64,000 nucleotides of DNA from the NCBI RefSeq assembly GCF_014075995.1, contig NZ_CP055153.1, positions 5,146,001 to 5,210,000 on the forward strand, in the 5' to 3' direction. This DNA comes from Adhaeribacter radiodurans. GTDB taxonomy: Bacteria > Bacteroidota > Bacteroidia > Cytophagales > Hymenobacteraceae. A program made the position numbers and the translations under genes. Below the pieces are notes generated by a model. It did not search any database and had not been told where the DNA came from. It saw nothing but the letters and a program-made list of their open reading frames with translations. Shown one piece after another: positions 54,716-64,000 of this stretch (its first letter is position 1; each line of letters begins with the position of its first letter).

Positions 54716-55405
54716 TTAATTGTTAACAATTACCTGAGCCCCTATGGTATTAGTATTTCCAGTGGGTGGTGCCGCATATCCGCGGGCAAAAACAGTGTAT
54801 ATTTTGCCATTTTGCAAAGCTACTCCGGGCAAATCCAGCACTACCGTATTGGTACCGGCTAGCCTCACTTCCAGGTTATAAGAAGTAGCGTCTACCGGTG
54901 TAAAATCGGTAGCTGATTTAAAGCTTCGGTTGCTAAACAAAACTGGCCCATCTTTTACTGCTATATCTACAGCCGGAGCATCTGGCGATAAATGTATAAA
55001 CCGGACGTGTGCCTTACCCGAAGCTGGGGTGGCTAAATTATCAGGTAACACCAGAGGTTCTATGTTAGCCAGGTTGTTAATGGCAAACACGGAGTAATTC
55101 TGTCCGGCCACAAGGTCAAGGTTGGCGTCGATAACTGAAGTGGCAGAACCAGCAGCATTTACCTTAACGTTACGCTGGCCAGCCATTACATCCAAGTATC
55201 CAGAATTATTCGGAAAAGCCAACCCGCTGGAATTAACTTTTACATTATCTACTAAAATATCAACAGCGGGCGCATTCGGCGAGGCGTGTACCACCATAAC
55301 CCGAGCCTTGGCCATAGTATCAGTATCTTCGTCGTCGTCATTACAAGCAGTCAGGAACAAGGCCGGAAGTAGAACCAGCATCATGAGTTTTAACCATTTT
55401 TTCAT
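54716..55405 (-). CDS. DUF4397 domain-containing lipoprotein
   Basis: A 229-residue lipoprotein: signal LMMLVLLPALFLTAC with lipid Cys at about 21, followed by acidic residues (NDDDEDTD) that may favour surface display. Two repeats of the domain core are visible, VVHASPNAPAVDILVD and FIHLSPDAPAVDIAVK, then a C-terminal beta segment ending GAQVIVNN. The domain is common in Bacteroidota surface proteins; function unknown. Confidence 0.9.
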   Translation of the reverse strand: MKKWLKLMMLVLLPALFLTACNDDDEDTDTMAKARVMVVHASPNAPAVDILVDNVKVNSSGLAFPNNSGYLDVMAGQRNVKVNAAGSATSVIDANLDLVAGQNYSVFAINNLANIEPLVLPDNLATPASGKAHVRFIHLSPDAPAVDIAVKDGPVLFSNRSFKSATDFTPVDATSYNLEVRLAGTNTVVLDLPGVALQNGKIYTVFARGYAAPPTGNTNTIGAQVIVNN

Positions 55406-55810: not shown

Positions 55811-57004
55811 ATGGCTAATGTAAAGCCGCTTACGCCAGCAGAGCAGGAATTTGTACGGGAACACGCCCAAGCCGATCCGGCCAAATTGCTCTTGCAACAA
55901 CACCGGTACAAAGATTTAGACGTTCCCCGCTTGGTGCACTACATACAAGCCCGGCAAAAAGTTAAAAGCAAGCTGCCGCTCTGGTACCAAAACTTACAGA
56001 TTATCTACCCGCCTTATTTATCTTTAGAACAAAGCTCTTCCGAAATAACTGCTCGTTACAAAGCTAATTTGGTGCGTGGCCAGGTATTGATAGATTTAAC
56101 GGGCGGTTTTGGGATTGATAGTTTTTATTTTGCCCAGCGTTTTGAACAGGTGCATTACGTGGAGCAAAATCCTAGCTTGACGGCTGTTTCCGAGTTTAAT
56201 GCCACTGTTCTGGGTGTTACGAATATTCAATTTCATACTGATAACGCAGCTAAATTTTTAAAAAATTTTACCGGCAAAGCTGATTGCATTTACCTGGATC
56301 CGGCTCGGCGGGGTAATGCTAACCAGAAACTCCATTTATTAAGCGATTGCGAACCAAATGTTTTGGAAATGCTGCCATTGCTTTTCCAGAAATCCGATCA
56401 GGTTTTGTTGAAAACTTCCCCGATGCTGGATATTGAACAAGCCCGTCAGCAGTTAAATAAAGTAAGTAAAGTATTAGTAATAGCTGTAGATAACGAATGT
56501 AAAGAGGTACTCTATTTATTAAATGAAAATTCTCCTCCGGAAATTCAATTTGAAGCAGTAAACCTTCATCCACAGAAAGAAGCCATAATTTTTAGATTTA
56601 ATAAATCTGATGAGGAAACTGCATCCATTACTTATGCCGAGCCGCAACAATATATTTACGAACCTAATACAGCCATACTAAAAGCGGGAGGGTTTAAGAG
56701 TGTCGCTCAACAATATAGTATAAACAAACTGCACCGCAACAGTCATTTATACACCTCCGAAATGTTAATTACTGATTTCCCGGGGCGAGTTTTTAAATGT
56801 TTAACCGTTTGTAAGTACCAGAAAAAAGAAATAATAACTCATATACCAGAAAAGAAAGTCAATATTACGGTTCGTAATTTTCCGGAACCCGTAGCGGCTA
56901 TTCGCAAAAAATTAGGTTTGCAGGAAGGTGGCAACCTGTATTTACTTGCTACTACCGATATTCACCAGAAGCCTGTTATTCTAATCTGCGAGAAAGCTAT
57001 GTAA
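55811..57004 (+). CDS. Class I SAM-dependent methyltransferase with THUMP-like domain
   Basis: A 397-residue protein. Central Rossmann motifs are LIDLTGGFGIDSFYFAQRF (SAM-binding) near residues 94-112 and IYLDPARRGNANQK. The N-terminal third is helical and the C-terminal third resembles the ferredoxin-like THUMP-associated domain described for the Porphyromonas PG_1098 group. An RNA substrate is likely by family, but the modified base is unknown to me. It precedes the acetyltransferase gene in the same direction. Confidence 0.84.
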   Translation: MANVKPLTPAEQEFVREHAQADPAKLLLQQHRYKDLDVPRLVHYIQARQKVKSKLPLWYQNLQIIYPPYLSLEQSSSEITARYKANLVRGQVLIDLTGGFGIDSFYFAQRFEQVHYVEQNPSLTAVSEFNATVLGVTNIQFHTDNAAKFLKNFTGKADCIYLDPARRGNANQKLHLLSDCEPNVLEMLPLLFQKSDQVLLKTSPMLDIEQARQQLNKVSKVLVIAVDNECKEVLYLLNENSPPEIQFEAVNLHPQKEAIIFRFNKSDEETASITYAEPQQYIYEPNTAILKAGGFKSVAQQYSINKLHRNSHLYTSEMLITDFPGRVFKCLTVCKYQKKEIITHIPEKKVNITVRNFPEPVAAIRKKLGLQEGGNLYLLATTDIHQKPVILICEKAM

Positions 57005-57128: not shown

Positions 57129-57587
57129 ATGACGGTAGAAATCAAAAAATTAAGCAATCAAGACCTGGATACTTTTATAGAACTTATCCGGGTATTTGAA
57201 GATGTTTTCGAAATGAAAAATTTTGTTTTGCCTGATCACAAACATCTGCAGCAATTATTAGCTAAGGATAGTTTTTTTGTGTTTGTGGCCTTGGAAAATA
57301 ATAAAGTGGTGGGTGGCTTAACAACCTATACTTTAGAGCAATACTATTCTATCTTACCGGTGGTGTATATTTATGACCTGGCGGTTTTAACCAATTACCA
57401 GCGCCAAGGAATTGGTAAACTGTTAATTGCGAGTTTAAACGTTTATTGCAAAGAAATTGGGATACAAGAAGTATTTGTTCAGGCCGACGAGATTGATGAT
57501 TATGCGCTAGATTTTTATCGAGCCACTGGTGGCACACCCGAAAAAGTTGTTCATTTTACTTATCCTCTAAATACGCCGCCAGTATAG
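57129..57587 (+). CDS. GNAT acetyltransferase resembling aminoglycoside 3-N-acetyltransferase type I
   Basis: A 152-residue GNAT protein. Its centre matches AAC(3)-I enzymes closely from memory: VYIYDLAVLTNYQRQGIGKL (about 79-98, acetyl-CoA site RXXGXG-like), then EVFVQADEIDDYALDFYRAT and VVHFTYPL near the end. The N-terminal half (LIRVFEDVFE, FVALENNKVVGGLTTYTLEQ) also aligns. It sits alone with no integron or transposon around it, so it looks chromosomal. Whether it acetylates an aminoglycoside or another amine is unknown. Confidence 0.8.
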   Translation: MTVEIKKLSNQDLDTFIELIRVFEDVFEMKNFVLPDHKHLQQLLAKDSFFVFVALENNKVVGGLTTYTLEQYYSILPVVYIYDLAVLTNYQRQGIGKLLIASLNVYCKEIGIQEVFVQADEIDDYALDFYRATGGTPEKVVHFTYPLNTPPV

Positions 57588-57904: not shown

Positions 57905-58075
57905 ATGAAACTATCGAAAGCCTTATTAAGCGCTATTTTGCTAGGCATAACTGTTCAAACGACTACCAGTTGCGAAGAAAAAGAGCTGCCTCAACCAAAC
58001 TCAGAGCAAGGAGAAAACACCAAGCAGTCGGGAGAAGAAATTCCGGCTAACTGCCCCGGCTGTGGCATGGGTTAA
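57905..58075 (+). CDS. Putative MNIO-class RiPP precursor peptide (chryseobasin-related)
   Basis: A 56-residue peptide. Residues 1-22 form a basic plus hydrophobic stretch (LSKALLSAILLGITVQTTTS) ending at Cys23, like a lipoprotein signal. Residues 24-47 are a polar Glu/Gln/Pro-rich linker. The end is Asn49-Cys50-Pro-Gly-Cys53-Gly-Met-Gly56. A Cys-containing C-terminus next to a DUF692/MNIO gene is the arrangement of known MNIO RiPP precursors; CPxCGMG endings are what I recall for the chryseobasin-related group. The stop is 26 nt before the MNIO start, so the two should be cotranscribed. Modification and product are inferred. Confidence 0.8.
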   Translation: MKLSKALLSAILLGITVQTTTSCEEKELPQPNSEQGENTKQSGEEIPANCPGCGMG

Positions 58076-58101
58076 GAAGGTAGTTTTAAAATTGTATACG
58101 G

Positions 58102-59235
58102 GTGCCGCAAATACTATCTTCTATAGCTTGTAATTTAGACGCTGATATTTTAACTGCGGCTTTGCCCTTGTTTGAAGAAAGCCGGGTAGGGGCGATAGAG
58201 TGGTCGTTTGATACCCTTTACGGTAATTCTCAAATTCCGCCCTGGTTCTTAGAATTACTAAAAGCTTACAGCAACGAAAACAAGCTTATTGGGCACGGCG
58301 TATTTTTTTCGCTGTTTTCCGGCAAATGGTCTCAGAACCAACACGAGTGGCTAAACCAATTGCGCCAATTATCTTCGGAATTTCACTTTGACCACATTAC
58401 CGAACATTTTGGTTTTATGACGGGCCAAAATTTTCATTACGGGGCTCCCCTTCCTATTCCTTATTCTAAAACAACTTTAGCCATTGGGCAAGATAGATTA
58501 GCCCGCATTTACGAGGCCAGCCAATGCCCGGTAGGTTTAGAAAATCTTGCCTTTTCGTATTCATTAGATGAGGTAAAACAGCACGGCGAATTCTTAGAAC
58601 AATTAGTAGCGCCCGTTAACGGCTTCCTAATTCTGGATTTACATAATCTTTACTGCCAGATTCACAACTTTACTATTTCTTACGAGGACATTATCAACCT
58701 GTACCCGCTTGACCGGGTTCGGGAAATTCATATTTCGGGCGGCACTTGGCAGGATTCTACTGTTGAGCCGGAACGAAAAATAAGAAGAGACACCCACGAC
58801 GAAGCCGTACCAGAAGAAGTTTTTCAGTTACTAAAACGTACAATAGATAAGTGTCCGAATTTAAAATATGTAGTTCTGGAGCAACTCGGCAACGCCTTAA
58901 AAACAGAGGCCAGTAAAAAACTTTTTTATTCAGATTTCTTGAAGTTAGAAGAAATTGTCCGAAACAAAAACCATTCTTTAGCCTCGCATTTTACTAATTC
59001 CTTTCTGCCTTCAAAATCTGTAACTACTGGTAGCATTCTAGAAGACGAAAAACTATATCAACAACAAATTCAGTTATCTTCTATCCTGGAAAAGGCTTCT
59101 TCTTACCAGGCGGCAATTCATTTACTAAATTCCTCGCCTTTAGCCCACTCCGACTGGAAAATCGAACAATGGGAACCGCACATGCTCGAAACGGCAATAA
59201 GTATTGCGCAAAAGTGGAAGAAAAATCTTGATTAA
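58102..59235 (+). CDS. DUF692 / multinuclear non-heme iron-dependent oxidase (MNIO) RiPP-modifying enzyme
   Basis: A TIM-barrel protein of 377 residues from a GTG start; an in-frame stop at 58087 and no other start codon support it. Likely metal ligands of the family are visible: His65, His98, Glu101, Glu147, Asp179 and His181 (LDLHN), His210, Asp230 and His232 (DTHDE) and Glu260. Such enzymes use a di- or tri-iron centre and oxygen to rebuild cysteine-containing peptides. Typical members are about 280-300 residues; here about 85 extra C-terminal residues (293-377) are helical and may replace a separate partner protein. The substrate is presumably the peptide just upstream. Confidence 0.85.
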   Translation: MPQILSSIACNLDADILTAALPLFEESRVGAIEWSFDTLYGNSQIPPWFLELLKAYSNENKLIGHGVFFSLFSGKWSQNQHEWLNQLRQLSSEFHFDHITEHFGFMTGQNFHYGAPLPIPYSKTTLAIGQDRLARIYEASQCPVGLENLAFSYSLDEVKQHGEFLEQLVAPVNGFLILDLHNLYCQIHNFTISYEDIINLYPLDRVREIHISGGTWQDSTVEPERKIRRDTHDEAVPEEVFQLLKRTIDKCPNLKYVVLEQLGNALKTEASKKLFYSDFLKLEEIVRNKNHSLASHFTNSFLPSKSVTTGSILEDEKLYQQQIQLSSILEKASSYQAAIHLLNSSPLAHSDWKIEQWEPHMLETAISIAQKWKKNLD

Positions 59236-60727: not shown

Positions 60728-60949
60728 CTTTTTCAATAAAGAATTTGTAAAACAACACTTACTACAGATTTAGCATCCGGCTTCAAAATCACACACTGTC
60801 TGGATGGAAGGATAATCTTTCTTGATGTATTTGAGAATTATTTATTCTCATGAGTTCACATAACTTATGTAAATAATTTCTTCTCTGCGAAGCATTTTAG
60901 TAGGTTTTTAGCACCCGTCACTTACAATAGGTATTCTCAAAGTTTTGAT
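60728..60949. other. Non-coding gap before the riboswitch
   Basis: No gene seen. An imperfect inverted pair (GAATTATTTA near 60835 with TAAATAATTTC near 60880) is present. It otherwise appears to be plain upstream sequence. Confidence 0.4.
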
Positions 60950-60957
60950 TACCTTTG
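60950..60957 (+). promoter_or_regulatory. -7 element of the btuB transcript
   Basis: TACCTTTG fits TAnnTTTG and lies just before the cobalamin riboswitch. A -33 TTTG at the exact spacing was not found. Confidence 0.5.
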
Positions 60958-60961
60958 CTTC

Positions 60962-61142
60962 AGATTGGTGGCTTACTTGCACCCGCATGTAAAGCCTTAA
61001 AAGGGAATCAGGTGTAAAACCTGGGCTGTTCCCGCAACTGTAATCTTCTAATAACCAGTTTGTTTATTCCTTATGCCACTATTCTGCTTTTAGAATGGGA
61101 AGGCCAAACGAACCGAAGAAAGCCAGGAGACCTGCCAACCGG
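60962..61142 (+). ncRNA. Cobalamin (adenosylcobalamin) riboswitch
   Basis: The conserved core is visible in order: the GGTGGC / CATGT start, AAAAGGGAATCAGGTGTAAA, CTGGGCTGTTCCCGCAACTG, a variable arm, then the B12 box GCCAGGAGACCTGCC at 61122-61136. It lies about 115 nt upstream of a BtuB-like receptor gene. B12 binding normally lowers expression of such genes. Ends are approximate. Confidence 0.9.
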
Positions 61143-61255
61143 AATTTATGTTACACGCTTTCGGGTAAAAAGCTAAGGGCCAGATACATGATATTATATT
61201 TTACTTCATTGCTGCTTCTTTTCGCCCCGACGGATTTAAATCTGACCGGGAAAAG

Positions 61256-63172
61256 ATGCGCTTAAAAAATTTATTGCTTTTATTAGTTTTCGGGCTACTC
61301 CACCAGGTTGCCTGGGCACAGGCTATCGGCGATACGCTCACGGGAGGCAAACTGCCGGAGGTTCAAATCACAGCCAGGCATTATCTGCGTTATACCATTG
61401 GCTCCCGTACTACTAAACTGGATTCTGCCTACTTAGGAGTGAATAATGCTACTTCTCTGGCCGATGTATTGCAAAGCCGCACCCCTATTTACCTGAAAAA
61501 CTACGGAAATGGCATGCTTTCTACTATTTCCTTCCGGGGAACTTCGGCCAGCCAAACCGCTGTATTATGGAATGGCTTTAACATTAACCTTCCTACTTTA
61601 GGTCAAACTGATTTCTCGCAAATTCCTATAACTGCCATCCAAACCGTAGAATTGCAGCACGGCTCGGGTAGCGCTAATTTTGGCACTGGTGCTATTGGCG
61701 GAAGTATTTTACTTTCATCTAATGCTAATTGGCAGCCCGGTTGGCAGTTCAGGGCGCAGCAAGATGCAGGTAGTTTTGGGTATAATTTTCGTCAGTTGGC
61801 AGGTAAGTTTAGCACTAAAAAAGTAAATTTAGAAACTACTTTTTACCGTAAAACAGCTCAGAATAATTTCAGATTTAAAAATATTACTCAGTTTGGGGCT
61901 CCTTACCAACGGCAAGAAAATGCCGCCCTTGATCAATGGGGTTTTACTACCAATTTATACCTGCGCCTCAACACCCGCAATACGGTAGCTATCCGGAATT
62001 GGTATACCGATAATAATGACCAATCGCAACCCAACATGGTGGCCGCCAATACCCATGCTCGCTTGGCCAACCGCAACTGGCGGCTCATGAGCGAATGGGT
62101 TAATAACACCAACTTAGGCCAAACAACCATCCGGGCAGCGTACTTCGCAGATTACATGCTTTATCGCGACGATAATACTAATGCAGAAACCCAGGTAAAT
62201 ACTTACCAAGCCCAGGCCCAGCATAGTTTTACCTTGGCAAAGAAAATAAACGTAGATGCCGGCACCGATATTCAATATTTTACCGCCGATGTAGATGGTT
62301 ACGGAAAAAAAGTAAATGAAACCCGGGCTTCTGGCTTTCTTTTACTCCGCTACGATCCTTTATCTTTTCTACACTTAAACTTAAATCTGCGCCAAGCTTG
62401 GATAACAGGTTTTAATCCGCCGCTGGCTCCTACCTTTGGTTTTGCCTTTGATATCCTTGAAAAAAGTAAAAACTCGCTTACCTGGAAAGGAGCAGTTACC
62501 CGTGGCTACCGTGTTCCTACTTTAAATGACCGGTACTGGCCAACCGGCAATGTAAGTTTAAAGCCCGAAAACAGCTACAATTTCGAAGCGGGTTTCCTGC
62601 ACAAGTATTCTCAAACCAGGTTTACAGTAGAAAACGAAGTGACCGCGTATCACATGCGGGTAGAAAACTGGATTCAATGGTTACCCGCGGCAAGTACCGG
62701 CATTTGGTCGCCTGAGAATTTAAAAAAAGTACATACGGCGGGGATAGAATTTTCGAGTAAAGCAAATTGGCAGTTCTCACGGGGTAAGTTAACCACGGGA
62801 GTAAATTATAATTATACTTCTTCGAAGCAGGTCCAAAATGATAATAATTCTTCGGAGCCAACCGGAAAGCAGTTGATATACGTGCCCTATCACACGGCCA
62901 CTACTTACGCCGATTTTACCTATAAAACTTGGCTGCTAACGGCTAATTACCAATTTACCGGAACCAGGTATACTACTGCCGAAAACACACGCTCTTTACC
63001 TGCTTATGGTTTGGTAAATCTTTATAGTGGCAAAACTTTTATAATTAATAAGGCTAATTTTCAACTAATAGGCCGGGTAAATAACCTGACCAACCAAGTA
63101 TATCAAAATTTAGAATACTACGCCATGCCCGGCCGGAACTACCAGCTTAGTGTTCGCTTCACTTTCCATTAA
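61256..63172 (+). CDS. btuB: TonB-dependent receptor, BtuB-like cobalamin importer
   Basis: Outer-membrane receptor of 638 residues. The signal peptide is MRLKNLLLLLVFGLLHQVAWA, followed by a TonB-box-like LPEVQITA near residue 35-42. The plug has NGMLSTISFRGTSASQTAVL and VELQHGSGSANFGTGAIGGS, then a 22-strand-type barrel to the aromatic C-terminus RFTFH. Control by a cobalamin riboswitch and the downstream BtuG-like gene (33-nt gap) point to cobalamin as substrate. Size and plug also match BtuB. Confidence 0.9.
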   Translation: MRLKNLLLLLVFGLLHQVAWAQAIGDTLTGGKLPEVQITARHYLRYTIGSRTTKLDSAYLGVNNATSLADVLQSRTPIYLKNYGNGMLSTISFRGTSASQTAVLWNGFNINLPTLGQTDFSQIPITAIQTVELQHGSGSANFGTGAIGGSILLSSNANWQPGWQFRAQQDAGSFGYNFRQLAGKFSTKKVNLETTFYRKTAQNNFRFKNITQFGAPYQRQENAALDQWGFTTNLYLRLNTRNTVAIRNWYTDNNDQSQPNMVAANTHARLANRNWRLMSEWVNNTNLGQTTIRAAYFADYMLYRDDNTNAETQVNTYQAQAQHSFTLAKKINVDAGTDIQYFTADVDGYGKKVNETRASGFLLLRYDPLSFLHLNLNLRQAWITGFNPPLAPTFGFAFDILEKSKNSLTWKGAVTRGYRVPTLNDRYWPTGNVSLKPENSYNFEAGFLHKYSQTRFTVENEVTAYHMRVENWIQWLPAASTGIWSPENLKKVHTAGIEFSSKANWQFSRGKLTTGVNYNYTSSKQVQNDNNSSEPTGKQLIYVPYHTATTYADFTYKTWLLTANYQFTGTRYTTAENTRSLPAYGLVNLYSGKTFIINKANFQLIGRVNNLTNQVYQNLEYYAMPGRNYQLSVRFTFH

Positions 63173-63205: not shown

Positions 63206-64000
63206 ATGAACAAAAATTTATTTAACCAGTCGGTTTTGGTTGGTTTTTGCCTCAGTAGTATTTTTTTAACCAGCTGTACCGATGACGATTCCGGTGGAAA
63301 CACTTTAGAACCCAAAGGTGCTTATGAGAAAGGCGTATTAATTGTAAACGAAGGAAACTTTCAGAAAGGCAATGGTGCCATTTGCTTTTTTGATAAGCAA
63401 AATAAAACCGTTGTAGAAAATGTTTTTCTTACGGAAAATAACCGGCCGTTAGGCGATGTAGTGCAGTCTGCTACTATCCATAACGACCGGGCTTATGTGG
63501 TAGTGAATAATAGTAATAAAATTGAAATTGCGGATGCGAATACTTTTAAATCGTTAGGAGTAATTAACAATCTGCAGATGCCCCGTTACTTAGTAGTTGC
63601 GAATAATAAAGGTTATCTAACCGAATGGGTAAGTTACAGCAGTAAGGGCCGGGTCTCTATTATTGACCTTACTACTAATGCTGTTACTAAAAGCTTAGAA
63701 GTAGGCAAGTTACCTGAAAAATTATTGGTACTGAATAACAAAGTTTACGTTACCAATTCCGGCGATAATACATTATCGGTTATTAATTCTACTTCGGATG
63801 CTATAGAAACAACACTTCCCGTAGGCGACTCTCCTAATAGTTTAACCGTTGATGCGGCTAATAAATTATGGATATTATGCAGTGGTCAGAAAAATTATAA
63901 TTCAGATTATTCCATCGACGAAAATACCAGTACGCCGGGTAGTTTAGTTCGCATTAATCCTAGTACGCAAGCTATAGAAGCCACATTAACTTTTACTTCT
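63206..64000 (+). CDS. Beta-propeller lipoprotein, BtuG / YncE-like (partial)
   Basis: First 265 codons of a gene running off the right edge. A lipoprotein signal ends at Cys24 (LTSC) followed by acidic residues (TDDDSGG), a possible surface-export signal. Repeated blades include RVSIIDLTTNAV, NTLSVINSTSDAIETTLPVG and SLVRINPSTQAIEATL, typical of YncE/DUF5074 propellers. Placed right after btuB in a riboswitch transcript, it is probably a surface B12-binding BtuG homologue, as described in Bacteroides; that is inference from context. Confidence 0.82.
   Translation, partial: MNKNLFNQSVLVGFCLSSIFLTSCTDDDSGGNTLEPKGAYEKGVLIVNEGNFQKGNGAICFFDKQNKTVVENVFLTENNRPLGDVVQSATIHNDRAYVVVNNSNKIEIADANTFKSLGVINNLQMPRYLVVANNKGYLTEWVSYSSKGRVSIIDLTTNAVTKSLEVGKLPEKLLVLNNKVYVTNSGDNTLSVINSTSDAIETTLPVGDSPNSLTVDAANKLWILCSGQKNYNSDYSIDENTSTPGSLVRINPSTQAIEATLTFTS

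Follow-up and report, generated by a model that had tools for sequence, protein, structure and literature searches.

Introduction

The systems closest to the locus studied here are DybAH, ChsAH and HymAH, each a precursor gene with its MNIO enzyme. As the portions of the preprint drawn on here describe them (PMC12636315), the Bacteroidota precursors of this subfamily are shorter than ChrA and carry a third cysteine in a lipobox; the clusters consist minimally of precursor and MNIO, with no obvious conserved partner gene. DybH, ChsH and HymH, co-expressed with their own precursors alone, yielded products lighter by 4 Da. By NMR the DybA product contains a macrocycle together with a hydantoin; in Escherichia coli, DybA became triacylated at an internal cysteine. 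HymA, from Hymenobacter, ends CPGCGLG. A C-terminal helical domain is present throughout the ChrH family, fused to the MNIO; in cyanobacterial relatives it is separately encoded.

Here we analyse a pair of genes in a stretch of 64,000 nucleotides from Adhaeribacter radiodurans (the window). An earlier note had taken the pair for a stripped-down MNIO locus with an unflagged precursor. Its core interpretation, an MNIO enzyme beside a short, Cys-ending, chryseobasin-related precursor, stands; 'stripped-down' and 'unflagged' do not, and it overlooked the lipobox. The locus is of an already-known kind, the two-gene lipidated RiPP type of DybAH, ChsAH and HymAH, and the window pair is a further, intact-looking member. 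What is new here, as judged by a limited literature search with the preprint's sequence logos outside it, is the conservation of the precursor's signal peptide.

Results and Discussion

The precursor and its enzyme

The precursor ORF begins with ATG and runs for 56 codons (MKLSKALLSAILLGITVQTTTSCEEKELPQPNSEQGENTKQSGEEIPANCPGCGMG). A gap of 26 nt, as in the earlier note, separates its stop from the GTG with which the enzyme gene starts, and both reading frames are intact in the window. The features of the pair, all on the forward strand, are as follows.

57905..58075, +, RiPP precursor of 56 aa, chryseobasin-related / DybA type (NF050125 match; conserved upstream of the enzyme)
57905..57973, +, signal peptide with lipobox TTSC at residues 20-23 (sequence; alignment A2)
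57974..58051, +, variable hydrophilic linker, residues 24-49 (alignment A2; pN/pS 0.38)
58052..58072, +, core motif CPGCGMG, predicted site of the macrocycle and hydantoin (sequence; chemistry by analogy with DybA and HymA)
58102..59235, +, MNIO (DUF692, PF05114) enzyme of 377 aa, GTG start, DybH/HymH type (PF05114; NF050165 below cut-off; AlphaFold2 model)
58252..58884, +, stretch matched by PF05114, residues 51-261, within the TIM-barrel core (Pfam match; structure model; ligand mapping)
58999..59220, +, fused C-terminal helical domain, about residues 300-373 (AlphaFold2 helices)

Far from being unflagged, the precursor is matched over residues 1-56 of 56 by a curated model, NF050125 ('chryseobasin-related MNIO class RiPP peptide'), at 91.3 bits (cut-off 40, E 4.6e-26; NCBIfam search). 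The cysteine of the T-T-S-C lipobox, Cys23, is invariant in 14 precursors (alignment A2). It is the predicted lipid-attachment residue, and the product is a predicted lipoprotein. Scanning for a promoter and a terminator turned up nothing beyond chance.

The enzyme scores 114.6 bits against PF05114 (Pfam cut-off 25). Its AlphaFold2 model, with a mean pLDDT of 82, is closest in the PDB to TglH (8hi7, E 3.6e-14, and 8hci) and then to MbnB (7fc0 and 7tcr). The iron ligands of TglH, in the part of the source used here, are H71, H107, E151, D184, N187, H216, D229, H231 and E258 (PMC10880893). In a HMMER alignment E147, D179, N182, H210, D230, H232 and E260 of the enzyme have the same residue types as the last seven of these. 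H71 and H107 of TglH fall outside that alignment, and H65 and H102 of the enzyme were assigned through the facing histidines of 3bww, a related structure. All nine candidate ligands are invariant in 14 relatives, bearing out the ligand set that the note had expected. At the C-terminus the model places helices at residues 316-331, 335-344 and 359-371. The domain that the cyanobacterial relatives encode separately (PMC12636315, in the part drawn on) is thus predicted to be fused to the enzyme here, which speaks against calling the locus stripped-down.

Class assignment

Judged from its sequence, the window pair carries every feature of the subfamily named in the consulted parts of PMC12636315. 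It has the features of the chryseobasin-related DAG-RiPPs: the NF050125 match, a CPxCGxG end, the lipobox cysteine, the fused helical domain and no adjacent partner gene. HymAH of Hymenobacter gelipurpurascens is like it in having a precursor and an MNIO without a partner and a CPGCG(L/M)G end, differing in the Leu that replaces the Met of the window motif; the likeness is one of described features (PMC12636315, in part). DybAH of Dyadobacter crusticola shares the third cysteine in a lipobox, a CPxCGMG end, the fused helical domain and the lack of a partner, with CPACGMG in DybA against CPGCGMG in the window (PMC12636315, likewise in part). Five Dyadobacter enzymes are 59-61% identical to the window enzyme, DybH itself lying outside this comparison. 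TglHI and MbnBC share the TIM-barrel fold and the iron-ligand residues but work with separate partner proteins on different substrates and yield different products.

ChrA and ChrH resemble the pair in enzyme subfamily and C-terminal motif (PMC10214503; PMC12636315). Yet ChrA lacks the lipobox cysteine in the two copies read, and the chryseobasin operon is larger and its product S-methylated, as these sources describe them in the parts used. The model for ChrH, NF050165, gives the window enzyme 408 bits, below its cut-off of 600, and the enzyme is therefore not ChrH proper; the companion model NF050124 reaches 11.9 bits (cut-off 50). In a quick tree of 92 enzymes the window enzyme joins three same-genus kin with support 95, and these fall in a mainly Hymenobacteraceae group (support 84), with Hymenobacter among the nearest relatives. 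Two ChrH-proper enzymes are set off from these by a long branch (support 100%).

These results bear on the possibility that the enzyme, like ChrH, uses SAM to make an S-methylated, chryseobasin-type product (+10 Da). Subfamily and motif are the same, and ArlAH gave a mixture of methylated and unmethylated product in the described experiments (PMC12636315). We nevertheless consider methylation very unlikely: the enzyme groups with mainly Hymenobacteraceae sequences away from ChrH proper, both chryseobasin models score below their cut-offs, and DybAH, ChsAH and HymAH yielded products of -4 Da in the same part of that source.

A copper-binding metallophore with thiooxazole or oxazolone-thioamide groups, like methanobactin or the bufferins, would also come from an enzyme of this superfamily. 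Some bufferins are predicted lipoproteins (PMC12452194), and one oxazolin has been shown to be lipidated (PMC12636315), in the portions of those sources drawn on. Such a product is highly improbable here, given that the MbnB model TIGR04159 scores 22.2 bits against a cut-off of 325 and the BufB model NF050167 98.2 against 310, that the motif differs, and that the DybA product is described, in the part of PMC12636315 used, as lacking such UV absorbance.

The proposed product

We conclude that the pair very probably (about 0.9) makes a DAG-RiPP of the DybA/HymA type, with the full scheme of modification and lipidation. The enzyme, with its iron centre, would act in the cytoplasm without a separate partner, recognising the C-terminal CPGCGMG and removing four hydrogens (-4 Da). 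The two cysteines would be joined in a thiohemiaminal-linked macrocycle, and the backbone just after it would close into a hydantoin ring; one thiol would stay free, and S-methylation would not occur. The lipoprotein signal would then direct the modified peptide to export, Cys23 would receive diacylglycerol and LspA would cut before that residue, so that the peptide stays anchored in the membrane and carries its modified ring at the other, free end.

For this scheme the genome supplies both genes, the motif, the lipobox-like site, the ligand residues, the predicted fused helical domain and an LspA-like ORF, and the relatives supply the pairing. The reaction and the absence of methylation are inferred from DybAH, HymAH and ChsAH, and the lipidation from DybA, as reported in the parts of PMC12636315 used. 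The LspA-like ORF of the host (223 aa) scores 39.5 bits against TIGR00077, below the cut-off of 73.95; the stop flagged at this ORF is the codon immediately before its ATG. With the one Lnt model applied, TIGR00546, canonical Lnt was not found in the host genome (G000): its sole match, at L205, has 21 bits (cut-off 132.9), and we read it as a nitrilase-type amidase ORF. Because the Lnt model gave just this match, the host product may not be triacylated and may differ from the form seen in E. coli.

Conservation of the pair

Among 98 related genomes, the window's own included, NF050165 matches at E 1e-10 or better in 17: 14 strongly (at least 367 bits) and 3 weakly (at most 52 bits). Directly upstream of the enzyme, all 14 strong relatives have a short precursor that contains a lipobox-like site and ends C-x-x-C-G-x-G, and every one of these precursors gives an NF050125 match with an E value of 0.001 or better; at the three weak matches in this sample no lipobox/motif precursor was seen. 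A DNA pattern for the C-terminal motif was found in 13 of the 98 genomes, in 12 of them directly upstream of the enzyme, and its reversed form in 2 of the 98. The pattern missed two enzyme-bearing genomes, whose motifs are CPACGRG and CLSCGMG. The remaining match (G033:C12:16197-16220, minus strand) stands alone in a genome without an enzyme match and may be due to chance.

The named loci are the best 80 of 241 relatives found among genome contigs. In 79 of these best 80 a precursor lies 1-194 nt upstream of the enzyme, measured to the start of the tblastn match; L079, also among the best 80 of 241, has none in the upstream stretch examined. The conserved Cys-ending neighbour that the earlier note had proposed to look for is therefore present. 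Lipobox counts among the named loci rest on a choice of start that requires a lipobox-like cysteine; the only ORF in the best 80 of 241 without such a start is an extra copy in L074, ending CPPCGRG. Two or more tandem precursors occur in 8 of the best 80 of 241 (L056, L067, L074, L087, L088, L089, L095 and L098). Their linkers are clearly different in most, the L056 copies being nearly identical and the L095 copies similar.

A phylum-wide draw of 395 genomes gave NF050165 matches at E 1e-60 in 6, two of them above cut-off (ChrH proper). Four of the five loci read from this draw have a motif-ending precursor; the fifth, L140, which starts near a contig end, lacks one. In the host genome the pattern TGYCCNNNNTGYGGNNTGGGNTRR, which covers residue 6 as NTG codons only, occurs once, at the window precursor, and within that coverage no second motif substrate in trans was found. 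Among the viral contigs (viral_contigs) no relative was confirmed in the 16 stretches that match a pattern; the phages gave no match.

Could the short ORF be spurious, or the locus a decayed remnant? The brevity of the ORF invites the question. Among four same-genus copies, compared in pairs, the core motif shows zero amino acid changes (pN/pS 0.00); the ratio is 0.12 in the signal, 0.22 in the enzyme and 0.38 in the linker. In these copies the precursor ORF evolves as a coding gene. With signal and motif values well below 1, both frames intact, a 91-bit family match and a pairing conserved in 14 of 14 strong relatives and in 79 of 80 loci (best 80 of 241), a spurious or decayed gene is hardly credible.

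Gene neighbourhood and inferred gain or loss

The pair is flanked upstream by a GNAT gene and downstream, on the other strand, by a DNA-3-methyladenine glycosylase gene. No partner protein, methyltransferase or exporter gene is found among these immediate neighbours, as the earlier note had observed. A gene with a methyltransferase domain lies further upstream (55811-57004); from its Pfam domains we take it to encode an RNA methyltransferase that has no connection with the pair. Among NCBIfam models the GNAT acetyltransferase (57129-57587, +) is best matched by the AAC(3)-I family, whose cut-off of 200 its 109.6 bits do not reach.

Within 8 kb, no ORF family besides the enzyme occurs in more than 9 of 80 loci (best 80 of 241 relatives). 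This survey used ORFs of at least 90 aa in single-linkage clusters; small genes lie outside its coverage, and some loci are shortened by contig ends. The pair alone is the normal form of the subfamily, in agreement with PMC12636315 as far as it was drawn on. Because it recurs alone in relatives, 'stripped-down' is misleading. A TonB-dependent family that we read as SusC-like is found in 8 of 80 loci (best 80 of 241); SusC-like genes are described, in the consulted part of the preprint, as often co-occurring with such clusters (PMC12636315).

The pair is not present throughout the genus. Two genomes without the enzyme, G002 and G004, keep the order SAH hydrolase, RNA-methyltransferase-like gene, glycosylase and DUF4136 lipoprotein with the pair absent, G002 carrying a DUF4397 gene in addition. 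The site that is empty there is occupied in G005 by the pair and a GNAT gene. In G003 and G006 the pair adjoins the glycosylase, and the GNAT and RNA-methyltransferase genes are unmatched in the stretch read; in G001 the gene order around the site is lost. From these arrangements we infer that gain or loss affects the two genes together. A relative 68% identical to the window enzyme lies with its precursor on the Hymenobacter volaticus plasmid NZ_CP095062.1 (L159, 4761-6122), beside replication and ParA genes; the PLSDB gene table, incomplete by its own account, omits this precursor.

Further downstream in the window is a cobalamin riboswitch (60949-61153, +; Rfam RF00174, 103 bits), which precedes a TonB-dependent receptor gene (61256-63172, +) and a DUF5074 lipoprotein-like gene (63206-64000, +). 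The arrangement resembles that of vitamin B12 uptake operons of the BtuB-BtuG kind.

Conservation of the signal peptide

The DAG-RiPP scheme leaves one observation unexplained, the conservation of the signal peptide. Its mean pairwise identity is 68-70% (13 or 14 genomes, 78 or 91 pairs). The signals of five orthologous control lipoproteins from the same genomes average 43% (DUF4136), 36% (DUF5074), 34% (GldH), 31% (GldD) and 44% (BamD). Pair by pair, the precursor signal is more conserved than that of DUF4136 in 75/78, DUF5074 in 77/78, GldH in 78/78, GldD in 91/91 and BamD in 82/91. Even against the mature parts of the controls its identity is greater in 72/78 pairs for DUF4136, 77/78 for DUF5074, 62/78 for GldH, 49/91 for GldD and 72/91 for BamD. 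Within the genus (6 pairs) it stands at 85% against 50% for DUF4136 and 71% for DUF5074, exceeding both in 5 of 6.

Some of these figures favour selection on the signal less. Mature GldD equals the precursor signal in identity (69% each), and this tie and the 71% of the DUF5074 signal within the genus are less favourable to such a reading. Several scripted lipobox picks are doubtful (GldH in G035; GldD in G063, G019 and G027), and GldD starts vary in length; the doubtful picks lower the GldH and GldD values somewhat, and no mispick was seen among the listed picks for BamD, DUF4136 or DUF5074. GldH in G018 was excluded, its lipobox not having been found, and a third window lipoprotein, at 54716-55405, was dropped as a control, its matches being confined to 9 of 14 genomes and in several cases weak.

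In a wider comparison, of 3081 pairs of 79 named precursors, signal identity rises with that of the enzyme: it is 51%, 60% and 74% where the enzymes are 50-60%, 60-70% and 70-80% identical, and linker identity in the same bins is 24%, 27% and 42%. Recent spread is an unlikely cause of the conservation within the genus, since synonymous divergence among the four same-genus copies is high (pS 0.57-0.72, that is, differences at 57-72% of synonymous sites). On an ungapped profile of the DybA-type signal, 79 of 79 DybA-type leaders score above the best of 392 other signal-like N-termini, a result that shows one family only, not selection. Scored in this way for possible homology to the DybA-type signal, two ChrA leaders rank 25 and 34 of 393.

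The preprint, in the part used, suggests that, with the C-terminal motif alone being recognised, purifying selection on the N-terminus is relaxed throughout the subfamily in all its diversity (PMC12636315). Within this clade we see the opposite. The conservation suggests selection beyond generic export and hints at a sequence-specific role. Tentatively, and at somewhat less than even odds, we propose that the signal, with the consensus M-K-(L/I)-(S/P)-K-x-L-L-x-A-I-x-x-G-(I/V/L)-(T/A)-V, performs a further task that depends on its sequence. It would serve either as a RiPP leader to which the enzyme binds, so that ring formation outpaces export, or, once released, as a peptide that acts in its own right.

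Implications

The pair adds a lipobox-bearing member with a CPGCGMG end to the newly described class of RiPP-lipoprotein hybrids. Within one genus, its presence in some genomes and its absence from the corresponding site in others yield a matched set for comparison. Should the signal peptide indeed double as a leader, this would change the view of how the enzymes of this class choose and time their substrates.
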